This document shows, one piece after another, positions 6,701-35,950 of a stretch of DNA of 36,071 nt (position 1 is its first letter; each line of letters starts with the position of its first letter). A program made the translations under genes and the position numbers. Source of the DNA: a virus; IMG/VR virus record IMGVR_UViG_3300020392_000035, positions 1-36,071 of that record, one strand, 5' to 3'. Below the pieces are notes generated by a model that ran no database searches, had not been told where the DNA came from, and saw only the letters and a list, made by a program, of their open reading frames with translations.

Positions 6701-7399
6701 TCAGTTTGGCAATTTTCCCTCGAGTTGAGTTAGCAAGTAATGGTTAAGAAACCAAGCGTCGACTAGGTCATCAAAAGGCTTCGGAACTTTTTTCACCTCG
6801 CCAATCTCAGAAACACAATACTTATATAGCGGAGTTTTAGCTAACTCAGGAGATTCGCAAACATTATTTAGAAACGCAGTCCAAAGTGCGGCTTTATTCA
6901 TATTACCTTTTCCAGCATGTTTCTTAATCGTAGTCGGTGCAACAGTTAGAATATCTTCGACACAAAGCATTTCCATCATTTGATGCTTTAAGATTGCAGC
7001 TCCTGCTGCCATGTCGATAATGTTATTTGTTCCCATCTTTGAACCGTAAGATGAGCCCTCGAAAGCAATATAATAATCTTTTGTTGAGCCGATTATATTG
7101 ACTATTTCAGATATAATATCTGTAGCCATTTCTCTGTATCTCTTGATTTTTGCGAACTCGTTCTTAGAGTAGTCACCAAATTTTGTTTTCCAATCTGGTT
7201 GATGAAATAGGGTTACGTCTGAGAATGTGCTTATTTCTTCTTGTCTTCGCTGTTCAGCTTTTGTGCCAGTGCCAGCTTTAAGATATGAGATAAATTGATA
7301 TTCATTCTTGTCAGATGTCCAGATACAGATACCAGGGGAATTAAGCGAGAAGTCAACTGTTACTAAATTCAAATTAGATTCTTTTACCCATTGCAGCAC
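6701..7399 (-). CDS. RuvC-like Holliday junction resolvase / RNase H-fold nuclease
   Basis: The 232-residue protein has the spaced acidic residues of the RuvC family: TVDFSLNSPG (D16) on the first strand, IAFEGSSYGS (E114) after the fourth, a basic HAGKGNMNKAALW segment, and the C-terminal helix PFDDLVDAWFL with D211 and D214. Such enzymes cleave branched DNA, which in a T4-like phage is needed to resolve recombination intermediates before packaging (in T4 this is done by the unrelated gp49). No ATG is available before the catalytic strand in this frame. The likely start is GTG at 7399, giving a 26-nt overlap with the upstream gene; a TTG nine codons further in is the alternative. It is the last gene of the leftward structural block. 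Confidence 0.8.
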   Translation of the reverse strand: MLQWVKESNLNLVTVDFSLNSPGICIWTSDKNEYQFISYLKAGTGTKAEQRRQEEISTFSDVTLFHQPDWKTKFGDYSKNEFAKIKRYREMATDIISEIVNIIGSTKDYYIAFEGSSYGSKMGTNNIIDMAAGAAILKHQMMEMLCVEDILTVAPTTIKKHAGKGNMNKAALWTAFLNNVCESPELAKTPLYKYCVSEIGEVKKVPKPFDDLVDAWFLNHYLLTQLEGKLPN

Positions 7400-7742
7400 C
7401 TAGGGCAGCGCCAACTAAACGGGAGGTTAATAAATCGTAGAATATACCTTTCTGAATACCAAGTACTTTAGCAACCATCTTACCCATAGATTTTCCTAGC
7501 GCGAAACCAGTTAAACCACCGATAATAGAACCTAGAAGACCTTCATTTACTATATCTTCTTCAAGTCTATCTAAGTCGAAAGAACCATCTTCATTTTGAT
7601 ATTGTTGTACGAACTCTTCTAGAGCTGCGTCAACTTTTTTCTCTAATTCAGGAGTCCAATCAGATTCTAAACCCTCTTGCAAGAGTTTCATATCTGTGTC
7701 CGTGATTTTAGCTTCAACTAAGTATTCATTAAATGTTTTCAT
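7374..7742 (-). CDS. Putative capsid-targeted internal head protein with glycine zipper
   Basis: The 122-residue protein begins MKTFNEYLVEA, which matches the T4 capsid-targeting sequence of internal proteins (MKTYQEFIAEA in IPIII), including the LxE/A site cut by the prohead protease. After an acidic helical region (about 12-67), the C-terminal half is Gly/Ala-rich and hydrophobic. It has glycines at 71, 75, 79, 83 and 87, a perfect GxxxG zipper, and a second set at 111, 115 and 119. Glycine zippers pack helices in membranes. By inference the protein is packaged in the head, processed, and possibly delivered with the DNA to act at a membrane. It lies 14 nt after the tube-fold gene and overlaps the RuvC-like gene. 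No function is known for a close relative. Confidence 0.6.
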   Translation of the reverse strand: MKTFNEYLVEAKITDTDMKLLQEGLESDWTPELEKKVDAALEEFVQQYQNEDGSFDLDRLEEDIVNEGLLGSIIGGLTGFALGKSMGKMVAKVLGIQKGIFYDLLTSRLVGAALGAAMGKRI

Positions 7743-10413: not shown

Positions 10414-11223
10414 TTAAAATTGTAAAAATTTAGGTGACCAGTAAAGTCCAACACCAAGTGAAGGGCCGGTACTAATTACCTGATTATTATTTAAGTTAAC
10501 ACCATATCCAACACCAAAGCCTATTAACCATCTTGATTTCTTCTCAGCCTTTCTGTTTAATCTAGTATTGACTAAATTTATATTTTCAATATCTCTAATC
10601 ACTAACCCTGGATACGAAGTAGATAATTTAAGTCTGTCTGCTCCATCTTCACCAGCTTCAATTGCAGCCATCAGGCTTAGTGTTTGCTTTAATTCAAATT
10701 GTGTGTTTAAGACTTCGAATTTTCCAAAGTCATATTTTACCGTCGAGAAACCACTTAAGATTCTTGAGTTACCATTACCAAAATCTTTTTCTGAATTAAA
10801 AGTAATTCTAGTTGTAGTAGTATCAATTGTCTCTGTAGTTGTCGATACGTCTAGGCTATCTTTAATCTCTAATTCTGCAGAAATTAAAGAGTTAACCTCT
10901 TTCAAATCTTTATTTAACGCGAGAGCCTTTTGGTATCTCCTTGTTAAATTCTTCTGACTCTCTTCAAGCTGTGATAGGTCAAACTCAAAAGATCTAATCT
11001 CAGCTAGCTGGTCGCCATTCTCATTTCTTAGTACTTTAACAGAGTCTTGAGCTGCTTTGTAGTTATTTAAACTTCTATCAGCATCCTCTTGTGCAAACTT
11101 CACGTCTTGTTTAAGATTAGAAATTTGGTTACACTGTCTAAGAAATAGCATAACGAAAAGAGCTCCAGCAATAAATGTTACTAGAGTCTTATTCGAGAGT
11201 ATGTTTTTTATTTTGTCTTTCAT
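10414..11223 (-). CDS. Membrane-anchored coiled-coil protein, candidate single-molecule spanin
   Basis: The 269-residue protein has a short basic N-terminus, one hydrophobic helix (about 13-29, TLVTFIAGALFVMLFL) and then a long heptad-like coiled coil (about 35-120). A Thr-rich linker and a beta-rich part follow, ending in a Gly/aromatic segment (GFGVGYGVN ... GVGLYWSPKFLQF). This layout of an inner-membrane anchor, periplasmic coiled coil and C-terminal amphipathic beta segment ending in Phe is what a protein bridging inner and outer membranes would look like, as in spanins that complete lysis. Its position between fibre and tail genes is not a typical lysis cassette, so a virion or envelope-spanning tail role is possible. 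No lipobox is seen. The function is inferred from architecture only. Confidence 0.55.
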   Translation of the reverse strand: MKDKIKNILSNKTLVTFIAGALFVMLFLRQCNQISNLKQDVKFAQEDADRSLNNYKAAQDSVKVLRNENGDQLAEIRSFEFDLSQLEESQKNLTRRYQKALALNKDLKEVNSLISAELEIKDSLDVSTTTETIDTTTTRITFNSEKDFGNGNSRILSGFSTVKYDFGKFEVLNTQFELKQTLSLMAAIEAGEDGADRLKLSTSYPGLVIRDIENINLVNTRLNRKAEKKSRWLIGFGVGYGVNLNNNQVISTGPSLGVGLYWSPKFLQF

Positions 11224-12158: not shown

Positions 12159-15100
12159 TTACGACGTTATTTTTATCATAGGCTTAATTCTATAAGAATA
12201 ACCTAATCTTTTATTATATATCAATCTAAAATTAAGAGGCTTTTGCTCATGAGCTCTAAAAGAGAAGTTTTGGTCTTGTGCAAAACCTCCATCATCTAAA
12301 GCATCAACAGTGGCAGCAAGTTCTATACTAGAGTCCACACCTTTAATTCTTCGAGTGAATAGTTTTATTTGTTGAATTCCGAATAGATTTACTAAGTTTT
12401 CATCGATGTAAAGCTCGGCATCATCTTTCAGAGTAGTTTTATCTTCAGCAGAGTCACCAACCGCTACATAATCCTGAATAGTTGCTAAAACTCCGTCTGT
12501 AGAAAGTGCTTTTCTAATAGTTGTAGTAATATAGAAGTCCATCACAATTCTTGTTTTATCTTCAAATACAACTACATCTGCTTGATTAGTAGAATTTAAT
12601 AATATATCTTCTTGTTCTTCTTCTGAATCAACATTATTAATTGAGAAATTAAGTAATGTGTAAGAGTCTTTTATCTTCATAATTGTAGAAGATAGGTAAG
12701 ACTTTTCTTCTTTAGTTTCAAAAGTACCTGGTACTAATTCTGACTCTCCACCAGATAAAGACCTAGTGTAATAGTTTTTATCCCAAGAAGATCTGAATGT
12801 ATGTACGTCTTTCTTGTCAATTGCAATCTCACCAATTAGTGGGTATAATGGTGGTTTATCTGAAGTTGCAGATAATTTAGTTACACCACTCGCGTTAAAC
12901 TCATTTACTTTTCTGTAGAAGTGATTTCTAATTAAACCCCATCCTTTATCATGAGCTCCATCATCATAGATAAAGCCTAAGTTTAATGCAACACCACATC
13001 TATTGTATCTCTTATAGAAATCTCTAGCTAAAGAAATTTCATCAGCATCGCTTAGAGAATGTTTATACATTTGCTCTTCTAACAGTAATTCACCAGTGTT
13101 TGCAGTACTCTGTAGAGTGTTAGTTTTCATGTGAGTATAAACATCTGTAAATGTAATTACAGGTCTAGTATCAACTGTATAACTACTATTCTGTCTAATT
13201 AAGAACGGGAAATAAGTTAAACCTTGTGCTAAATCAAAACCGATATTACCAGAGAATAATTTAAAAGATTCTGGTTTGTCGTCATCTTCAACAGTAACTA
13301 TGAAGGACTCTTTTACAACTTCAGTACCATCTTCTAGCAAGATAATAAACCTATTGTTACTTGAAGTACCATCAGTATCAATTGTTGTATAAGTTACATT
13401 GTTAGGTTGTCTTAACAACATCTCTGCCACTTCTTTAGCCGCTAAGCTATCTAATATATTTCTATATGCATTTACACCACCATTTACATAAGTGTATTCA
13501 GCGTTATATTGGAATGAATAAGGCATATTACTGAAATCTGCAGCAACAGCATTATTTACACCATCCGTAATATCTAATGGTGGCTCAGATAAAAGTAATG
13601 TATCTTGTCCCTCAACAGAAAGTAATTTTAATTGGTATATTCTAGGACCAAACCAAGTTTGAACCTTAACTTCAATAGTACCAAACTCATCTTCTTCATT
13701 CTTGTTGATTTGCTCAAAGTATTGAGGTATTGTATCATTACCATGTACCAGACCATTTACCAATAAGTAGTCTGATGAGTTCGGATCCATATTTATATTA
13801 ATTAAGTCCATCGAACCATCTAACTTAATATCTGAGAAAGCAAAAGTATTTTGTTCACCTTTCCAAACTAGAGAGTGGTTTAACTCATAGAGTAATTTTC
13901 TATTCAAAGATCCATCTGACCATAAGTCATCTAAATTTAAGTTGATAAAGAATACAACATACTTGAACTTCTTGTTTTGAATTACTTCATAAGATACATC
14001 GTTTGTTTCTTGTGCAGTTCTAACGTTTAGTAGAATACTGAATCTATATCCGTTAAACTCTGGAGATCTTACGAAATCTGCTGGGTTATCTTCTATAAAT
14101 TCCTTTCTATTCTTAAAGATAACTTTTAAACCTTTAAATATAGTAGTTGCAAACGCTTTGTTATTACCACCATCTACTTTAGTATATTTCTTTTGTAAAT
14201 TAGTCTTAACAAAAGTCTTATACGTGTTAGGAGCTTTACACTCAAAACCTTCTGTTACAAAGAATCTATCAAAGTAATCAAAATTAGTATCTTTAAAAAT
14301 AGAAGGTGTAATTTCAAAACCATCCATAAAGTTAATATAGCTAAATGAATCATTTAATCTATAGAATGGACTTGAATTTGTACCTTGGTTTTCTTTTAAA
14401 TACTTTGGTAGATTATTAAGGTAGAACCATTCATGTGTCATACCTAATCTGTTTCTACCATCAGAAGTTAAATCTGGCGCGAAATTAGATCTACCGAAAG
14501 CTTCATTTGTATTTAAGTAATATGGTTGTTCTCTTACAGTCTTAGTATCTTTTAATACCCACTTATTAATTGTAGGTACTACTCTAGAAGTAACTGCATA
14601 TTGTTTTAAGTAGTTCTCTTGTAGTCTATCAAACTCACTAGTTACAATACTATTATTATCGGCATCAGTAACCTCCTCTTGTAGAATATCTTGTAGTCCA
14701 GTAAAGTAACTAACAGGATCTGTAGTAAACTCATTGTTTTGTTTATCACCGAATGGGTAAATATCATTTTGATTATCTGTCTCCGGTTCGTATGCTATAT
14801 TAGCTGGAGTCTCGTACTGTAACTCTTTTAAATCTGAGTTTGCAGTGTCATAGAAATCAAAGTTCATATCGTGAATATCAAATGCAGAGAACATACCCAG
14901 TCTTACTAGGTTATCTGCATATATCTCAATCTCACCAGACTCAATCGTGTTTACTTTTTCTAAAATTAATTTATTGTATTGTAAAGGTAATCTCTCAATA
15001 TCATCTACAATATCAACTATCTTGTTGTATATTCCCGAAGACTTAGTCTCAATAAAGTCGCCTACATTAACATCACTTACTGAATCTAAAGTAACTAGAG

Positions 15101-18100
15101 CAGATTTACCAGTGGCATTACCTCCTGAGAAATAATAAACTGCACTATCAGTTAACAATGTAGCACTACTTGTTGCATCTTTAAATAACCTTAGTTCATT
15201 TAATGTATCTAGGTTGTTTGAGTCTATACTAATCCATTGGTTGGCATTAGAGTTAGGTATTGCAATACCAGCCTGTAGTAATCTATAACCTTGTACATCC
15301 GTCTTAACATATAAATGATCTGCTCCATCATAGGTTAGAGCAGTAAAGCCATTATCAACTGAGTTAATAGACTTTGCAATTGCAGTTGCAATCTCAGCGT
15401 TTGTTCCTAGTGCTGAGAAATTAGTAGAATTAAAAGTACCAGCAGATAAAGTAGTAGAAGCTCTAAAAGTATTGTTCTCTAAATCATAAGGTATTTGTAG
15501 TTCTTCAAATCTAAAGATAGAATTGAAATTACCTTGACCAGCTATCTGCGGCATTAGAGGATATAGAGAAGCTTTCTTCTCATATAATACAATAGAAGTA
15601 TCAGTTTCCTTTTCGAAAACTACATTTAAGTTTTCTAATAATTCAGTATAAGTCCATGTAAGAGAAGATATACTAAAGAACATCATACCTAACTTAACAT
15701 TAAGGTCTTCAACTAGATCAGCAATATCTGCAGTTGTAGTTAATCCTGTCATATTGTATACACTTCCACTTCCAGGGTTTCTGAGCGATATTGTAAGCTG
15801 ATCTCCAGCCGAATATCTAGTAAACTTAAGTCTATATGCCTGTTCTTTAGAAGGGAAGATTGCAAACTGGTCATTAATTGCCGGTGCACCAAGTACTGTA
15901 ACTTTTACAAAGTCACTACCAGGGTCAACATTAGTTACCATGTCTATTGAATTACCAGTTCTAGCCAATTTAACTTCAGCAGGTATTGCATTACCACTGT
16001 CTTCTACATTTACCTCTAGATTACTAGTATCATAGAATGTATTAGCATTAATCTTATAGAACTTCTCAGATATATTAGCATAACCTAATGTAGGTAATTC
16101 ATCAATTAGTTTAAAAGATGGGATAGCCGACTTAGGGTCATTGTTAATATATGAGTTTAGAGTTTTAAATCTTAACTTACCACTATTAGCAGATTCTAGA
16201 GTACCATACCCTGAATCAATGTCGTTTACATATATTCCAAAATATCTATTAACAGAGTAGTCTGAAGTCGTATTATCATCAAACAAGAACTCTAAGTTCA
16301 TTAAATTAGCACAAGCTAATGAGTTTCTTTCAAAACCACCTGTGATTAAATTATTACTTGCGATTAGAGTTTGGTCTTGTCTTACAAAATCTTTATGTAG
16401 GTATTCACCTTTACTAGTGAAACCACCTTTCTTAATATCGATACCATTGAATGAAGTTCTTTCATTCTGATCAAAGTTTACAGTGATTGGGTTTTTAGGG
16501 AATGACTCAGACTGAACGTGGTTTCTAATATAAGTACCTAATTCAGAGTCTCTCGTTAAGTCAAACGTCTTTACAATCTCACTGTTATTTAGAATTTCTT
16601 TCATGTTAGCGAAGTTAGAGCGCGTATCAAAATCTAAAGTACCTACTGGATCTTTTACTCTGAAGATAACGAATTTCTGAGGGATATTTTTATCTAACCA
16701 GATTGGTGCCATCATTCTAAGGTCTTCCTCATGAAGTTTAGAATAGTTATACACCGTACCGTAGTGATAATCCTCTTCTATTTGATTTTCAAAAGTCTCT
16801 TGTACTGTTAGATTAGAGAAAGACTCTTTCGCTAAATATACTTGGTCTGACGGAGTATTAGTATTCATAAAGAATCTAGGTAAATCATAAGACCATTGTC
16901 CTGTTTTGCTTAAAGCAAATTTCTTATATTCAACTGATGCTAACTCTTTAGTAGCCTCAATAGATTCGATAAACATTTTACCGTTTGAGTTAACCACTAA
17001 TTTAGCATTAGTTGATAGTTTTGGGTTCGTTCTTAATAGAGGTTTAGATAAATCATCTAACTGATAGTTCTTCTCTAACTTAAAGTTAGGTACTGATCTG
17101 TTAATTATCTCAGCATTATCTACTGTAGCTAGAGTGTACGAGCCAAGAGGTGTCTGTCCAGTTACACATGCGTTACAGTCTGTATATCCATAGTTAATAA
17201 CAGCACCAGAAGTAAGACCTAAGTCTACTGCATTTATCTCTAGTGGTCGAACATCATTACCTTGATATTCTGCCATAAGGCTTATTTGCTCAACAGCATC
17301 TTCAATGTTTACTCCTTCAAGACGATGCATTATTTGCATACAACTTATTAGTGTATCTCCACCGATAGTCGATTGGTCCTCTGCATTCATGTTGCCAAAA
17401 CCGTTCGCATAGACTGCAGCATCTACAAACTCTTTAATATATGATGAAGAGCCAGCCTCTTTGGTATGTAGACCATCTACAATATACAGTGGCCAATAAG
17501 GTATTCCATTTTCTATTTTAGCAACACATGAGTAGAAAGCATAGAATATATTAACTCTTGAGTCAGAATTACCTTGAACTCGGTAAGTAGTATTACCTGC
17601 TGGTCTATCGAACTGCGTTGAGCAGCTTCCTAGCTGTATACCTGGACCTCCTACAGTTAGAGCTAAATAGTCTGGTGAGTTCGGATCCGTATTTACACCC
17701 AACCATCTGTAGTCAGTATTATAGCCAGATGAATTATCATTCTCAAAGATAGCAAATTTCGAGTTGGTTTGGTCAAAGGTCGGTAAGCCGTTGTTGTCTG
17801 TAGATGAAGGTAAGAAAACTGTTGTAGGCCAAGAGCCTTCATAATCTACCTGAGTAGCTAATTCTTGAGTAGTGTAAATCATTAGCTGATTTTGCAATGC
17901 ATACTCTAACTTCTCTTTATCGCCAAGTTGGTCAACACCATCTTGGTTGTCTGCTCTAAAGTAAATAGTAGCTAATGTTAATTCAGCTTGTTCACTAGTA
18001 CAACCAGTGTCTACTCGCTCTCTATCATTTGCGTTATACCATACTTTAGCTTCGTAAGTTTGGTAAACAATTTCATCAGGACATGTATTCTTATATAATG

Positions 18101-20873
18101 CAAGTCCATTCTGATCTGTTACTGGTTGGCCCTGTACATCTGTAACTTGAACGAATTGACCGTTAACTATCTCAAAGTAGGAGCCTCCTTCAGATGGAGT
18201 TCTATAAAAACCATCTGGAACAATTACCGAACTTGGTATAGAACTAATAGGATTGCCTGCATAAAAGTTTGCATTAGCCTCGTTTGTAAACAGAGTACCT
18301 GTAGGAATATCATTTACCCTAACATCAGTTACCTGTTCTAAAGTAGCATTATTTACATTTGTTGTATCTACGACATTTTGCCATAGGGTAGCCTGTTCAT
18401 AACCTCCAACATGACATACACCATCAGCATCGTCTGAATAATAACCTATAATTGGCCAAGCATTACCTGTAGATATAGAACAGTTAACAGTTGAAATAAT
18501 TACACCACTAGTATCAATTTGTAAAGAAATAGTTGTAGGAGTTCCACCTATATTTTGAAATACTGATAACCACTGTGCGTTAGTTGAACTAGAAGAAACC
18601 TCATTACTTACAGTTCCACCACTATTATTAGCGGTTTGGTAAATAGAATCTCCTGCTTGTAATTCTGCGATAGTGGTTGCTTGATTAGCAGCATCTAAAT
18701 ATGCTGCAGTAGTTGTAGGAGTTGTACATGCTATTTCAGCAGAACTAGCGAATACGTTTGCTCTTTGAATCTGTACAATTGGTACAGGAGTTACTTCATA
18801 AGAGAATGTGATAGGGTGGTTACTAGCAGGGCTTACACCATATTGATCTGCTACAGTAATTTCAAATGTTACAGTCTGAGTTTGACCCTGTGTCATTCCA
18901 GTTAAACTGGCTGCATAACTAACAACTAAACCATTGATAGAAACATTACCACCACCAACTTGGTTTTGAACCGCTAATGTAATGTTACCGTCTCCATCGT
19001 CATCGGAAATAAAAGGAGCTAGGTCAACATCATTTTGGTCGTATTGGTTAATTTGATATGAACCTGTAGTCGGAAAGTTCTGTTGTGAAACTACCGGAGG
19101 GTCATTACTCTCTGATAATAGAGTAAATGTAACTGTTGCAGGAGCAGCTGCAAACTCACCTTGGTCGTCCTCGACAGTAATATAAGCTGTTTCATTTATG
19201 TTACTTTGACCTACACCTAAATTAGTGCCACTAGGTTTTGATAACGTAAATACAGTGTTGCCGATGTTAGAGTTACTAGCTAAGTCTACTTGTGATAAAC
19301 TAGGTAATCCTGGAAATGCAATTCTTGCACTTGGATCGTCATTTGCATTAGTCCAGTAATAATTTAAAGTACCAAGACTCTCATCTTGTGGGTTTCCATT
19401 AACAACAGAAGCTACATTAAATTGAGTTGAAGTACCCTGAGTACCATAACCATTTACAGAAACACCAAAACTTGAAATTGTTGGAGCAGTGTTCGCCGGT
19501 GGACCAACTGTGATTGTAATAGTCTTTGTTAGAGTATTACCATCCGAGTCTTCTGCTGTATACGTGAATGAATCTGTGGCATTACCACTAGCACCAAAAG
19601 TTGGATTAGGAGTATAAATTACAGTAGGTTGTCCATTATTAGCATCTAAAAAATCACCTACACCTAGAGCTACTTGGTTAGCAGTTAAGTCATATAGAGT
19701 ACCATTTGGTGGTAAACTTGCTATCTTAATAGCCGGCATACCGTCTTGAACATCACTAACAGCTTGACCTCCTAGGTTGGTAAAGTCAATTTGTAAAGAG
19801 TTACCTGTAATTACGGAAGCACTTTGCCAATCCCATGCTACTAGTCCAGTACCTGATTGTGTAATAGTTATAGTACTAGAAGTTACACCATTATCATCTG
19901 GGTGTGATAGGATTATGTCGACACTTCTATCATTTGTGTTAGGATTACTGACTGAATATGTATATGCTGGAACGGTAATGTTTAATGAACCACCACTTGG
20001 AGTCCCTCCGTTTTGAACAAACCCAACATCACCTGCAGCAGTATTCCAGTTAGTCTGATTGGTAAAACCAATGTTGTTACTTATGCTTAACGCCTGGCTC
20101 GCCCCAGTCATCTGGAATGTTCTTATGTTACTTCCACCTGCTGTAGCAACAGTTAGAGCAGAATTATCATCCCATTCAATATCAAGTTGCGCCGTTGATG
20201 TATCAGCTATCGCAATAGACGCTAGCGTGCCATCTGTTAGTTGAACTGTAAAAGTCTCATTACCTTCATTTGTCTGGTCATCGGCTGTAACCAGGTTAAT
20301 CTCTATTGGGTTTGTACCCAGTGTAAAATCTAATTCTGCTTGAGTATTTGACGCATTGTATTGGAATGGCCATGAATTAAAATCAGCCGAAGTCGCACTA
20401 CCGCCAGTTGTTAGAATAGGTTTCATTGATGGAGTTCCGGTCTCTGTAACTATTATCTTAAAAGGTACATTCTCATTAACAGTAGAGACTTGATTACCAT
20501 TTAATAGTTCAGTACTAATCTGGTATGTTGGACCTAGTGTTACAGAAACAACTTCACCTAGAGCAGGTCCACCACTACCAGAGAGGTCTACACCAGATAT
20601 TTCAACAACCTTGTTTGTAGGGGTTGGCCCATCATTTGCATCATCCGATGTGTAAAAGAACTCATTACTACCACCATCACCACTAAATGCAGTTGTATAA
20701 CCTGTATCGGTATATAGAATATCTCCAACTGCTATTGAACTAATAGACTGGTAATGCAATGTAGTATCGGTAACGCCGAGACTATTTGCAGCTGCAGCTT
20801 TATCCGCAGGGCCATTTTCAAATGCTAGTGCAGATGAATTTCGTAGTGATCCGTGAAATATAATTTGTGCCAT
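12159..20873 (-). CDS. Giant multi-domain virion protein (2904 aa) with Calx-beta, BACON-like and cadherin-like domains
   Basis: This is the largest gene in the window. After an N-terminal module (1-110) come a Calx-beta-like domain (about 134-225, with VTADDQTNEGNETFTVQL), a BACON-like beta-sandwich (about 238-341, ending SSTITITQSG), and cadherin/Ig-like domains (about 350-700) with DSFTYTAEDSDGNT and DPPVVS-type joins. A Cys-containing region follows (about 700-1230), then about 1650 residues of beta-rich sequence without recognisable repeats, probably the part built into the tail or baseplate. BACON and cadherin-like domains typically bind carbohydrate or proteins at surfaces, so host adsorption is the likely role. 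A GATATATAATA element lies 32 nt upstream. Domain calls are by eye. The region past residue 1230 is unassigned. Confidence 0.85.
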   Translation of the reverse strand: MAQIIFHGSLRNSSALAFENGPADKAAAANSLGVTDTTLHYQSISSIAVGDILYTDTGYTTAFSGDGGSNEFFYTSDDANDGPTPTNKVVEISGVDLSGSGGPALGEVVSVTLGPTYQISTELLNGNQVSTVNENVPFKIIVTETGTPSMKPILTTGGSATSADFNSWPFQYNASNTQAELDFTLGTNPIEINLVTADDQTNEGNETFTVQLTDGTLASIAIADTSTAQLDIEWDDNSALTVATAGGSNIRTFQMTGASQALSISNNIGFTNQTNWNTAAGDVGFVQNGGTPSGGSLNITVPAYTYSVSNPNTNDRSVDIILSHPDDNGVTSSTITITQSGTGLVAWDWQSASVITGNSLQIDFTNLGGQAVSDVQDGMPAIKIASLPPNGTLYDLTANQVALGVGDFLDANNGQPTVIYTPNPTFGASGNATDSFTYTAEDSDGNTLTKTITITVGPPANTAPTISSFGVSVNGYGTQGTSTQFNVASVVNGNPQDESLGTLNYYWTNANDDPSARIAFPGLPSLSQVDLASNSNIGNTVFTLSKPSGTNLGVGQSNINETAYITVEDDQGEFAAAPATVTFTLLSESNDPPVVSQQNFPTTGSYQINQYDQNDVDLAPFISDDDGDGNITLAVQNQVGGGNVSINGLVVSYAASLTGMTQGQTQTVTFEITVADQYGVSPASNHPITFSYEVTPVPIVQIQRANVFASSAEIACTTPTTTAAYLDAANQATTIAELQAGDSIYQTANNSGGTVSNEVSSSSTNAQWLSVFQNIGGTPTTISLQIDTSGVIISTVNCSISTGNAWPIIGYYSDDADGVCHVGGYEQATLWQNVVDTTNVNNATLEQVTDVRVNDIPTGTLFTNEANANFYAGNPISSIPSSVIVPDGFYRTPSEGGSYFEIVNGQFVQVTDVQGQPVTDQNGLALYKNTCPDEIVYQTYEAKVWYNANDRERVDTGCTSEQAELTLATIYFRADNQDGVDQLGDKEKLEYALQNQLMIYTTQELATQVDYEGSWPTTVFLPSSTDNNGLPTFDQTNSKFAIFENDNSSGYNTDYRWLGVNTDPNSPDYLALTVGGPGIQLGSCSTQFDRPAGNTTYRVQGNSDSRVNIFYAFYSCVAKIENGIPYWPLYIVDGLHTKEAGSSSYIKEFVDAAVYANGFGNMNAEDQSTIGGDTLISCMQIMHRLEGVNIEDAVEQISLMAEYQGNDVRPLEINAVDLGLTSGAVINYGYTDCNACVTGQTPLGSYTLATVDNAEIINRSVPNFKLEKNYQLDDLSKPLLRTNPKLSTNAKLVVNSNGKMFIESIEATKELASVEYKKFALSKTGQWSYDLPRFFMNTNTPSDQVYLAKESFSNLTVQETFENQIEEDYHYGTVYNYSKLHEEDLRMMAPIWLDKNIPQKFVIFRVKDPVGTLDFDTRSNFANMKEILNNSEIVKTFDLTRDSELGTYIRNHVQSESFPKNPITVNFDQNERTSFNGIDIKKGGFTSKGEYLHKDFVRQDQTLIASNNLITGGFERNSLACANLMNLEFLFDDNTTSDYSVNRYFGIYVNDIDSGYGTLESANSGKLRFKTLNSYINNDPKSAIPSFKLIDELPTLGYANISEKFYKINANTFYDTSNLEVNVEDSGNAIPAEVKLARTGNSIDMVTNVDPGSDFVKVTVLGAPAINDQFAIFPSKEQAYRLKFTRYSAGDQLTISLRNPGSGSVYNMTGLTTTADIADLVEDLNVKLGMMFFSISSLTWTYTELLENLNVVFEKETDTSIVLYEKKASLYPLMPQIAGQGNFNSIFRFEELQIPYDLENNTFRASTTLSAGTFNSTNFSALGTNAEIATAIAKSINSVDNGFTALTYDGADHLYVKTDVQGYRLLQAGIAIPNSNANQWISIDSNNLDTLNELRLFKDATSSATLLTDSAVYYFSGGNATGKSALVTLDSVSDVNVGDFIETKSSGIYNKIVDIVDDIERLPLQYNKLILEKVNTIESGEIEIYADNLVRLGMFSAFDIHDMNFDFYDTANSDLKELQYETPANIAYEPETDNQNDIYPFGDKQNNEFTTDPVSYFTGLQDILQEEVTDADNNSIVTSEFDRLQENYLKQYAVTSRVVPTINKWVLKDTKTVREQPYYLNTNEAFGRSNFAPDLTSDGRNRLGMTHEWFYLNNLPKYLKENQGTNSSPFYRLNDSFSYINFMDGFEITPSIFKDTNFDYFDRFFVTEGFECKAPNTYKTFVKTNLQKKYTKVDGGNNKAFATTIFKGLKVIFKNRKEFIEDNPADFVRSPEFNGYRFSILLNVRTAQETNDVSYEVIQNKKFKYVVFFINLNLDDLWSDGSLNRKLLYELNHSLVWKGEQNTFAFSDIKLDGSMDLININMDPNSSDYLLVNGLVHGNDTIPQYFEQINKNEEDEFGTIEVKVQTWFGPRIYQLKLLSVEGQDTLLLSEPPLDITDGVNNAVAADFSNMPYSFQYNAEYTYVNGGVNAYRNILDSLAAKEVAEMLLRQPNNVTYTTIDTDGTSSNNRFIILLEDGTEVVKESFIVTVEDDDKPESFKLFSGNIGFDLAQGLTYFPFLIRQNSSYTVDTRPVITFTDVYTHMKTNTLQSTANTGELLLEEQMYKHSLSDADEISLARDFYKRYNRCGVALNLGFIYDDGAHDKGWGLIRNHFYRKVNEFNASGVTKLSATSDKPPLYPLIGEIAIDKKDVHTFRSSWDKNYYTRSLSGGESELVPGTFETKEEKSYLSSTIMKIKDSYTLLNFSINNVDSEEEQEDILLNSTNQADVVVFEDKTRIVMDFYITTTIRKALSTDGVLATIQDYVAVGDSAEDKTTLKDDAELYIDENLVNLFGIQQIKLFTRRIKGVDSSIELAATVDALDDGGFAQDQNFSFRAHEQKPLNFRLIYNKRLGYSYRIKPMIKITS
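12212..12222 (-). promoter_or_regulatory. Late-promoter-like element GATATATAATA inside the giant gene
   Basis: An exact copy of the recurrent 11-mer, located in the last codons of the giant gene (encoding part of RLIYNKRL) and 55 nt upstream of the ATG at 12156. It would let the collagen-like gene and those after it be transcribed independently of the 8.7-kb gene. Its distance is larger than for the other four copies. Confidence 0.5.
13768..17695. repeat. 28-bp imperfect direct repeat within the giant gene
   Basis: Positions 13768-13795 and 17668-17695 share 26 of 28 bases, centred on GAGTTCGGATCC. Both are read in the same coding frame and encode DPNSSDYL and DPNSPDYL respectively. Flanking protein sequence differs, and third codon positions are conserved too. 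Confidence 0.6.
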
Positions 20874-33292: not shown

Positions 33293-34603
33293 TTATGTAT
33301 TTATTTTTGTGCTTACCACTATTTCTGTATCTTCAAATCTAGAGTTTGGTCCTATTCCACCCTCTCTAAAAATACCTCCGACCATTCTACCTTTGAAAAT
33401 ACCATCCTTTCCAAAGACATAACAGTTAGTCAGTGTGCAGCTACCGTGAACATAAGACGACTCTACTTTAGAATCTTTTATCTCACATCCTTGATAAAAT
33501 TGTGAGCGCAAGCACTGTGCTCCTTCAACTTTACCACCGTAAATTGAACTATTTTCAATGTTACCGGATAGCTCGCAATTGATAAACTCAAAGCCGTCTA
33601 GCAAATATGCTGTTTTAAAAACACCATCCTTAATTTGTACAGTTCCGTAGTCAGAATCATAATTGATAATACCCGACTCCATAGATCCGTTCGACAATAA
33701 TTCTAACACTTTGTGTTTAAATCTATTCCACTGTACATTAATAACTTGCTCATTGTCTGTTAAGTCTACTAATATATTTATCTGTCTCCAGTATTTATTT
33801 ACTGCTTTATAGTCTTTTAGCATCTCCATAAGAGGTCTATTCTTTTCTAAGATCCTCTTAAGCTCTATTTTATTCTCAGGTGTAAATTTAGGATTATTAC
33901 AAGATTTCCAAACTGACATAATAAACATTTCTGCTAAATGTAGAATATCATCTGTTCTTTTCTCGTAATTTTCACCACCTAAATATCTAAACTCTAAATA
34001 ATTCTTTTGTGCTTTCTCAAAGTTAATACCATAGTATTTAGTATTAGCATAAGTAAAGTTATCCGAACTAATTAAATCTTCATTATAGTAGAATGCTTCA
34101 TGTTTTGGCATAATCCATTTAACAGACTTAGCATAAGTTGAATGCTCTCTATTTGGAAAATACTTATAGACTCTTGCTTCATCAAACTCTAAGATAAACT
34201 TTAAGATTGACATGTGCGTAATCATGTATTTGTCCTCTAAGTAATCTGTATTAAAAGACATATTGAGATGAATAGAAGCTCGGTCATTAGTATAACCATT
34301 CTTCTCTATCCATCTTAACATCTTTTGAATTACAATTCTAGCACTACGGTACGGCATCGCACCAGTAACTAACTCAATAAGACCTTTACCACCAGACATA
34401 TCTGGTTCCATCTTAAAGACTTCCGCACTAGGTTGAAAGTCAGAATGAGCCTTTTCCTCTAATCGAATCTTCCTGTTTAATAATTCACTCAAAGACTTCT
34501 GTGTCTCTTCTAACTCTAGATTTGAGTAGAATTCAAACTCGACGCCTATTTGACTAGCGTTTAGGACAGATTGTCTCGATGAAGATCTGTTTAGTTTTTG
34601 CAT
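33293..34603 (-). CDS. Amidoligase-like protein with C-terminal beta-helix
   Basis: The first 300 residues (of 436) resemble the COOH-NH2 ligase (amidoligase) family, which has a glutamine synthetase-like fold. Visible motifs are IGVEFEFY (E22, E24), EPDMSGGKGLIELVTG (D68, E77) and SIHLNMSF (H112), in the order and spacing of the family's metal/ATP site. Such enzymes form amide or isopeptide bonds using ATP. Residues of about 315-430 are a run of short repeats (FINCELSGNIENSSIYGG, then similar turns with Gly, Ser, Cys and Phe at intervals) suggesting a right-handed beta-helix like pentapeptide-repeat or fibre domains. The gene sits between the S1-like and neck genes, with a variant promoter-like element 24 nt upstream. 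The substrate is unknown; modification of a virion or envelope protein is possible. Confidence 0.6.
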   Translation of the reverse strand: MQKLNRSSSRQSVLNASQIGVEFEFYSNLELEETQKSLSELLNRKIRLEEKAHSDFQPSAEVFKMEPDMSGGKGLIELVTGAMPYRSARIVIQKMLRWIEKNGYTNDRASIHLNMSFNTDYLEDKYMITHMSILKFILEFDEARVYKYFPNREHSTYAKSVKWIMPKHEAFYYNEDLISSDNFTYANTKYYGINFEKAQKNYLEFRYLGGENYEKRTDDILHLAEMFIMSVWKSCNNPKFTPENKIELKRILEKNRPLMEMLKDYKAVNKYWRQINILVDLTDNEQVINVQWNRFKHKVLELLSNGSMESGIINYDSDYGTVQIKDGVFKTAYLLDGFEFINCELSGNIENSSIYGGKVEGAQCLRSQFYQGCEIKDSKVESSYVHGSCTLTNCYVFGKDGIFKGRMVGGIFREGGIGPNSRFEDTEIVVSTKINT

Positions 34604-34654: not shown

Positions 34655-35950
34655 TTATTGGGGTAATTTAAGAAACACCTTCATAGTAGCTTCATCAATC
34701 CTAGTGATTTGAACATTGATGTCATCTCCTATTTTATAGTCTCCTATTGAATTTTCCGGCAATTCACTAACATGTAGCAATCCAGTTACACCATCTTCGA
34801 TATTTACAAAGATACCATAGTCTTTTTTAGTCTTAACTTTAGCCTCGACTACAGATGGTATTGTATATCTAGATTGAATATCTAACCATGGATTAAAAGA
34901 ACTAACTTCTTTTTGAGTTAATGTAATTTTAGTGTTGCTAATAATATCCTTAACAAAGAATTTTATAGGGTCTCCTGGCTTTATCTCTCTAGATTTGAAT
35001 TTAGCTTGAGTCTCCTCATCTAATTCATTATTATGAATCATACCTGTTAGGCATTTATCAAATTCTACGAATACACCATATTTTGCAGTACCTGTAACAT
35101 TACCTGTTTTCTCAACACCTAATGTTTGTTTTAATTCTTGTATTGCACCTGGAATTAAAGCTTGTAGATATTTTCTATGTGAAACTACAATTGTACCTCT
35201 ATCTGGAGAGAAACTAACTGGTACTACATAAATCTCTTCGCCTACAATAGAACCAAAGTCTGATAATTTATTAATACCTGCAAGTGAACCTGGCATGAAA
35301 CAATCTACACCTTGAACTCTTACAATATAACCACCATTCTCAATCATACTCTTAACTAAACCAATCCAAGCAGTGTTACCTTCTTCGATACCAGCTCTAA
35401 GATCCATGAATGTTTTGTGTTTAACTCCTCCAGTGATTGTTCCACCTAAAGTACCTTTTGTGTCAGTAATTAAGACAGCAGTTTCTTCACCTGGTAATAA
35501 AGCTCTGACTTCTTCAGACTCTTTATTAGCTTTTACATAGACTAATTCTCTATAGTCAATATCTACAGTAATAAAGTTTTGGTCTACTCCGTAAACAACA
35601 CCTGTATGAATTTCACCCTCATTGATAACAGGTTTAATCTTAGCACTATGGCCTTCCATTAAATCATATAACTCTTGAGCATAAGCCTCTCTTGAGAATA
35701 CTCTATCTCCGTTATTTGTTTTAATATGTGGGTTATGAGTCCTGTTTTGAGTTGGACATGTGGCTTCGTACTTCTCCCATAAGAACTCTCCGTTCTCATC
35801 ATAGAATTCTGAGAAGTCATTGCCATTATCTTTGACTTCTTCTTTAGTTTCAGTAAATTCTTGGGTAGGGGTTTGAACTTTATCTAAAAGTTCGATCGAT
35901 TCGGCTTTTACACCAGCAGTCTTAATTCTGCGTCTTTTTTTCTCTGACAT
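34655..35950 (-). CDS. Ribosomal protein S1-like RNA-binding protein with four S1 domains
   Basis: The 431-residue protein has a basic N-terminus (MSEKKRRRIK) and an acidic, probably disordered stretch to about 100. Four OB-type S1 domains follow at about 111-175, 190-258, 280-348 and 366-430. The last two are clearest: TGTAKYGVFVEFDKCLTGMI and KTKKDYGIFVNIEDGVTGLL are the classical S1 strand 2-3 motif (YGxFVx...GxxGLxH). The second ends with VVSHRKY, like the SRR segment after S1-protein domains. Bacterial S1 has six domains and brings mRNA to the 30S subunit, so four domains make this a shortened form. A GATATATAATA element lies 27 nt upstream, suggesting late expression. Alternatives are a ribonuclease accessory or transcription factor. 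The S1-domain call is firm; the translational role is inference. Confidence 0.88.
   Translation of the reverse strand: MSEKKRRRIKTAGVKAESIELLDKVQTPTQEFTETKEEVKDNGNDFSEFYDENGEFLWEKYEATCPTQNRTHNPHIKTNNGDRVFSREAYAQELYDLMEGHSAKIKPVINEGEIHTGVVYGVDQNFITVDIDYRELVYVKANKESEEVRALLPGEETAVLITDTKGTLGGTITGGVKHKTFMDLRAGIEEGNTAWIGLVKSMIENGGYIVRVQGVDCFMPGSLAGINKLSDFGSIVGEEIYVVPVSFSPDRGTIVVSHRKYLQALIPGAIQELKQTLGVEKTGNVTGTAKYGVFVEFDKCLTGMIHNNELDEETQAKFKSREIKPGDPIKFFVKDIISNTKITLTQKEVSSFNPWLDIQSRYTIPSVVEAKVKTKKDYGIFVNIEDGVTGLLHVSELPENSIGDYKIGDDINVQITRIDEATMKVFLKLPQ

Follow-up and report, generated by a model that had tools for sequence, protein, structure and literature searches.

The stretch of DNA analysed here, a 36,071-base IMG/VR fragment (the window), encodes a tagged glycine-zipper protein that has about an even chance of being a core protein of the head interior in a large lineage of T4-related phages: targeted, processed, ejected and membrane-active at genome entry. 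Sequence comparisons lend good support to head targeting and gp21-type processing. For presence in virions, ejection together with the DNA and activity at the inner membrane we rely on inference; the injection and host-membrane role suggested in the earlier note are plausible. The gene, the parts of its product and its neighbours are located as follows.

7374-7742, minus strand: gene of the tagged glycine-zipper protein, 122 amino acids, ATG start (open reading frame and translation; 71 distinct homologues aligned; at least 576 IMG/VR loci)
7713-7742, minus strand: residues 1-10, MKTFNEYLVE, T4-like capsid-targeting peptide with LxE at residues 8-10 (LVE↓A)
7674-7682, minus strand: residues 21-23, LQE, then G24, second prohead-protease-type site (L/I)xE↓(G/S)
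7542-7712, minus strand: residues 11-67, acidic region preceding the zipper, with predicted helices (charge count; low-confidence AlphaFold model)
7539-7544, minus strand: residues 67-68, E-G, invariant junction leading into the glycine zipper, possible third cut
7377-7541, minus strand: residues 68-122, glycine zipper, basic, two hydrophobic helices
7757-8308, minus strand: upstream neighbour, tail-tube-like protein (phrog_45)
6701-7399, minus strand: downstream neighbour, RuvC-like resolvase (phrog_159), GTG start

The open reading frame and its translation were confirmed. In the window, baseplate and tail genes are followed by the zipper gene, RuvC, a ssDNA-binding protein, a primase and a helicase. 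The zipper gene sits in the tail/baseplate cluster, away from head genes; no head genes were found within this 36-kb fragment. The GTG start of the RuvC-like resolvase, as listed, overlaps the 3' end of the zipper gene. A conserved AAAGATATATAC box upstream of the zipper gene was considered and rejected, with no enrichment in the window.

The N-terminus MKTFNEYLVEA had been described as a near match to the targeting peptide of T4 internal proteins (IPs). This description held: the peptide shares 6 of 11 residues with MKTYQEFIAEA of IPII and IPIII, as read from the T4 record, and F4/Y, Y7/F and L8/I are conservative changes. T4 IPI begins MKTFKEF in the same record. Mutations in the T4 IPIII peptide assigned residues 4 and 7 to targeting and residues 8 and 10 to cleavage (PMC9026906). 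The window tag agrees with T4 at these four positions, including aromatic residues at 4 and 7. Conservation was counted in 71 distinct aligned relatives of the window protein. F4 and L8 are present in 71/71, Y7 and E10 in 69/71 (97%). K2 and T3 are conserved; positions 5, 6, 9 and 11 vary. Near-invariance at the positions mapped in T4 and freedom at the latter four mean that conservation follows the functional map of the T4 tag.

The T4 protease gp21 cleaves after (L/I)xE, and IP propeptides have 10-19 residues (PMC9026906). The window protein has an (L/I)xE site within this distance from the start and a second one slightly past residue 19. The LxE↓A cleavage site of the earlier note stands in its LxE part, with L8 and E10 conserved as above. 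Its alanine does not: only 3/71 relatives have A at residue 11, most others having Q, N, E or T, and the conserved site is reduced to LxE. As the sole conserved cut site LxE↓A was rejected, given this variable +1 residue and the better conservation of the site at residue 23. In the latter, E23 is found in 71/71, L or I at residue 21 in 70/71 and G or S at residue 24 in 66/71 relatives; a homologue from Lak phages keeps it as LFE↓G. Two relatives (L055, L056) have lost E10 and retain LTE↓S or INE↓S near residue 20. This position recalls T4 IPI, with ITE↓A at residue 19 in the T4 record. Several cut sites within one propeptide are known from phiKZ (PMC9026906). Cleavage after E10 and/or E23 is likely, judged from the conservation of both LxE sites and the phiKZ precedent. 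E67 and G68 are each present in 71/71 relatives, and E-G also occurs in the homologues of LR756500, the Lak phages, L298 and L299. This junction was considered as the main processing site for its invariance and rejected: most relatives have T or V at residue 65, a misfit to (L/I)xE. E67↓G68 is a possible third cut, usually with a poor gp21 consensus.

A search for a gp21-like protease, proposed as a check in the earlier note, was successful in relatives, the window itself being a 36-kb fragment. PF03420 (gp21-type peptidase S77) scored above cut-off in G001, G002, G003, G008, G010, G011, LR756500 and two Lak phages. Records without this match are fragments, so absence there says nothing. PF07068 (gp23) was above cut-off in G001-G003, LR756500 and Lak. 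The contigs with a zipper gene that extend to head genes carry S77 protease and gp23 homologues. The S77 protease of the relatives matched the structure of T4 gp21 (5jbl) with an E value of 2.8e-5. The G002 capsid protein aligns with unprocessed T4 gp23 from residue 7, so it seems to have retained a propeptide region. In the capsid protein, a conserved LYE near residue 43 is a possible cut site. Some S77 ORFs are long, with 630-736 amino acids (G001:28327-30222, G002:88733-90925, G003:1816-4023 and W01:226728-228632). In these, a gp21-like domain precedes repeats such as YLAEKLDxSIQYSEHLAEG, with a long acidic stretch as well in some ORFs; by sequence they are apparently gp21-gp22 (protease-scaffold) fusions.

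The tag is not restricted to the zipper protein. Among 2292 ORFs of 15 records, the tag motif occurred 34 times versus 2.2 times in shuffles. A slightly relaxed motif was present at 33 N-termini versus 0.2 expected, in 12 families mutually unmatched by BLAST; the relatives thus contain the other genes with a targeting peptide for which the earlier note had suggested looking. In the T4 segments read, the relaxed motif identified IPII, IPIII and one internal chance match. A tagged acidic core-type protein adjoins the S77 protease, at the place of T4 gp68. Another tagged protein has an HEHTH segment recalling metallopeptidases, and its first 17 residues weakly resemble the start of PHROG 2667 'internal head protein' (E 0.008). 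In the sister phages L298 (5665-9438) and L299 (5536-9051), the zipper gene is followed by small genes in tandem, several of which begin with M(K/R)(S/N)L..Y(L/I)xE. This row, flanked by the tail-tube-like gene and a ssDNA-binding-type gene, is likely a cargo locus of head-packaged proteins, since several of its genes start with a tag-like peptide. Unrelated proteins of the same phage have the tag in common, both in the 12 families and in this row; judged by these occurrences, it is a shared system and not one coincidence. The head loading predicted in the earlier note is favoured by the other tagged genes, by the S77 protease and gp23 in relatives and by the match of conservation to the T4 tag map.

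Two further ORFs have related starts. The tagged protein G017:150555-151019 (MKKVKSYNNFVNE) has a strongly hydrophobic, glycine-containing segment directly after the tag, with a Kyte-Doolittle maximum of 1.79. An ORF of a huge phage (L348:7634-8332; LR756501, 735 kb) begins with MKKYNEYLLEEK near the tail-tube-like gene and has a weak similarity to the tag region of the family profile.

An alignment-based search found relatives of the zipper protein encoded at no fewer than the 576 IMG/VR loci given above, up from 56 on an initial look. Distant homologues are present in the 462-kb huge phage LR756500 and in Prevotella Lak phages; the Lak homologue is without the KTFxEYL motif. In L298:5665-6315 and L299:5536-6192, the zipper domain is located on a different, longer N-terminal region (216-218 amino acids in total). 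These two homologues have no clear tag, KTFxEYL being absent, and the junction is LNE↓G. A genome collection covering 84,980 species yielded no cellular or prophage relatives, and the zipper gene was not found in any cultured phage of the collection searched. All 11 large contigs (126-429 kb) have one zipper gene each, which makes a core function probable. Single-copy conservation across the clade also favours a core step over superinfection exclusion, a use considered in the earlier note that found no specific support.

The zipper domain (residues 68-122) contains 12 glycines, at positions 68, 71, 75, 76, 79, 83, 87, 95, 99, 111, 115 and 119. The four-residue spacing noticed before at 71, 75, 79, 83, 87 and 111, 115, 119 was confirmed, with the additional glycines at 68, 76, 95 and 99. 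Runs of five (71-87) and three (111-119) glycines at spacing four had P = 0.0005 on shuffling residues 68-122. These GxxxGxxxG runs are conserved: G71, G75, G76, G79, G83, G95, G99, G115 and G119 are present in 71/71 relatives, G87 and G111 in 69/71. A near-invariant D-L-L-T-S-R segment connects the two hydrophobic helices. The best 19-residue Kyte-Doolittle mean is 1.42, borderline versus the usual transmembrane cut-off of 1.6. Lysines 84, 88 and 92 render one helix amphipathic. The net charge is -14 for residues 1-67 and +6 for residues 68-122. Searches of Pfam, PHROGs, NCBIfam and PDB with the zipper protein gave nothing above cut-off or significant. The N-terminal peptides by themselves had no PHROG match, probably being too short to pass the filters. 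The weak Pfam matches were mostly glycine-zipper families linked to membranes. Gly-zipper_Omp (PF13488) reached 20.6 bits over 22 residues of the window protein, below the curated cut-off of 25, and matched weakly in 52/71 members. AlphaFold models from 22 and 71 sequences had low confidence (mean pLDDT 65 and 61), with helices at 15-24, 31-46 and 57-66.

In the proposed mechanism, residues 1-10 would target the protein to the capsid by binding the prohead core. The S77 (gp21-type) prohead protease would cut after E10 and/or E23 and free the remainder in the head. At infection, the processed protein would exit with the DNA. Its basic two-helix glycine-zipper domain would insert into or permeabilise the host inner membrane and aid genome entry; insertion might take the form of a hairpin or an oligomer. 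Points against this mechanism are the location of the gene in the tail/baseplate cluster, the borderline hydrophobicity and lysines of the zipper, the poor AlphaFold models, and the homologues of L298/L299 and Lak, which lack the KTFxEYL tag. More tentatively, and with a clearly lower probability, the protein may be the first recognised example, among T4-superfamily myophages, of a core ejection protein stored in the head: a tagged zipper peptide, released by the protease, that forms or primes an inner-membrane genome passage. If true, this would be the inner-membrane passage peptide of a very common lineage of marine and huge phages. The T4 targeting peptide is usually viewed as packing variable, dispensable counter-defence proteins. 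Here it occurs, at hundreds of metagenomic loci, on a single-copy protein that is strongly conserved and has a membrane-type motif, which would indicate a core delivery function of head-packaged proteins. The shared tag would also provide a simple rule to list head-packaged, possibly ejected proteins in uncultured phages of the group.

Among known systems, T4 IPI, IPII and IPIII are the closest in design. They are small and have an MKT(F/Y)xE(F/Y)-type N-terminal peptide with (L/I)xE at residue 10 (IPII, IPIII) or 19 (IPI). No sequence similarity to the zipper protein was seen past the tag, and the mature part had no significant PHROG match and no PDB match that would relate it to IPI, IPII or IPIII. 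Such homology is not a defining feature, because IPs share only the tag. In its sequence, the zipper protein appears to have the testable defining features of T4 internal proteins, with a mature part that matches none known. The whole unprocessed protein is acidic and T4 IPs are basic, a point against an internal head protein. T4 IPs are variable and dispensable, whereas the zipper protein is a single-copy core gene product with a conserved zipper domain and two conserved LxE sites. The T4 ADP-ribosyltransferase Alt is likewise head-packaged, processed and ejected, and its gene is near the tail-tube initiator gene 54. In contrast to the zipper protein, Alt is a large enzyme encoded on the strand opposite gene 54, and no family-library match links the two.

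Podophages of the P22 and T7 types have short tails and no T4-type targeting tag. Their ejection proteins (P22 gp7, gp16 and gp20; T7 gp14, gp15 and gp16) are similar in proposed role, being delivered with the DNA and providing a path through the envelope (PMC8402733), but show no sequence relation to the zipper protein. The N-terminus of the T6SS effector Tde1 has repeated GxxxG, a glycine zipper reported to make the target cytoplasmic membrane permeable, as proposed for cargo entry (PMC10240207). The GxxxG pattern is the sole resemblance; Tde1 is a DNase effector without a head tag. PF13488 and PF05433 (Rick_17kDa_Anti) share the GxxxG spacing in weak matches, but the window protein scores below their curated cut-offs. 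The literature searched contained no phage glycine-zipper ejection protein.

A head-packaged protein may also have a non-membrane job, such as DNA binding or counter-defence like T4 IPI, with the glycines packing the helices of a soluble oligomer. The basic charge of the zipper domain (+6), its conserved lysines and its borderline hydrophobicity are in agreement with this, as are T4 internal proteins, which are small and basic and include the restriction enzyme inhibitor IPI (PMC9026906). However, the counter-defence internal proteins of T4 are variable and dispensable (PMC9026906), unlike the strongly conserved, single-copy zipper protein, and its weak Pfam matches are mostly to membrane-linked families. 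A non-membrane job is unlikely.

The main rival is a prohead membrane tether, since proheads of the T4 type form on the inner membrane and are later released from it. The tag would bind the scaffold core, with the zipper in the inner membrane of the host; the prohead would be released by cuts at E10, E23 and perhaps E67, and the C-terminal part would remain in the cell and not in virions. Proheads of T4 and SPN3US assemble on the inner membrane and are freed after proteolysis (PMC9026906; PMC4493910). The location of the cut sites between tag and zipper, together with the invariant E-G junction, fits a tether, which would also account for a core single-copy gene. T4, however, uses its portal with gp40 and YidC and no tagged protein for this purpose (PMC4493910). 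The T4 tag peptides mark proteins retained in the head, and the E67 site is usually without L/I at P3. A tether is considered unlikely, and ejection from the head is preferred.

The position of the gene could indicate a tail or baseplate component or a tail-assembly factor with a T4-like start by chance. The tail-tube-like gene is syntenic with the zipper gene in the window and LR756500, and apparently also in L298/L299. In Lak-C1, however, it is absent among the neighbours of the zipper gene, and an S77 protease gene begins about 4.2 kb downstream. Cultured Tenacibaculum phages were examined as carriers and rejected: their capsid protein is similar and a tail-tube-like gene is present, but no zipper gene follows it. 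Both the tag and the second LxE site show conservation at the positions of processing, and the tag is common to head-core-type proteins. A tail function is quite improbable. A holin-like or other lysis membrane protein is far less probable still: the small size and two hydrophobic helices would suit one, but Foldseek with the AlphaFold models gave no significant match, only very weak ones that include holins (E above 1), a holin has no need of a head tag, and the surrounding gene cluster is structural.

Other genes of the window also drew attention. The protein encoded at 34655-35950 has several S1 RNA-binding domains and resembles ribosomal protein S1; similar-looking proteins adjoin the tail-tube-like gene in the huge phages L348 and L349. 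A protein with one N-terminal membrane-type segment and then a probable coiled coil (window 10414-11223; L058:16267-17112; L298:1959-2717) has a conserved location between fibre-type genes and the tail-tube-like gene. A 436-aa protein (33293-34603) had no match in Pfam and NCBIfam searches; a GVEFEF segment near its start recalls amidoligases. The first half of a 2904-aa protein (12159-20873) resembles Ig-like or cadherin-like repeats, and this protein is probably a giant adhesin or fibre.
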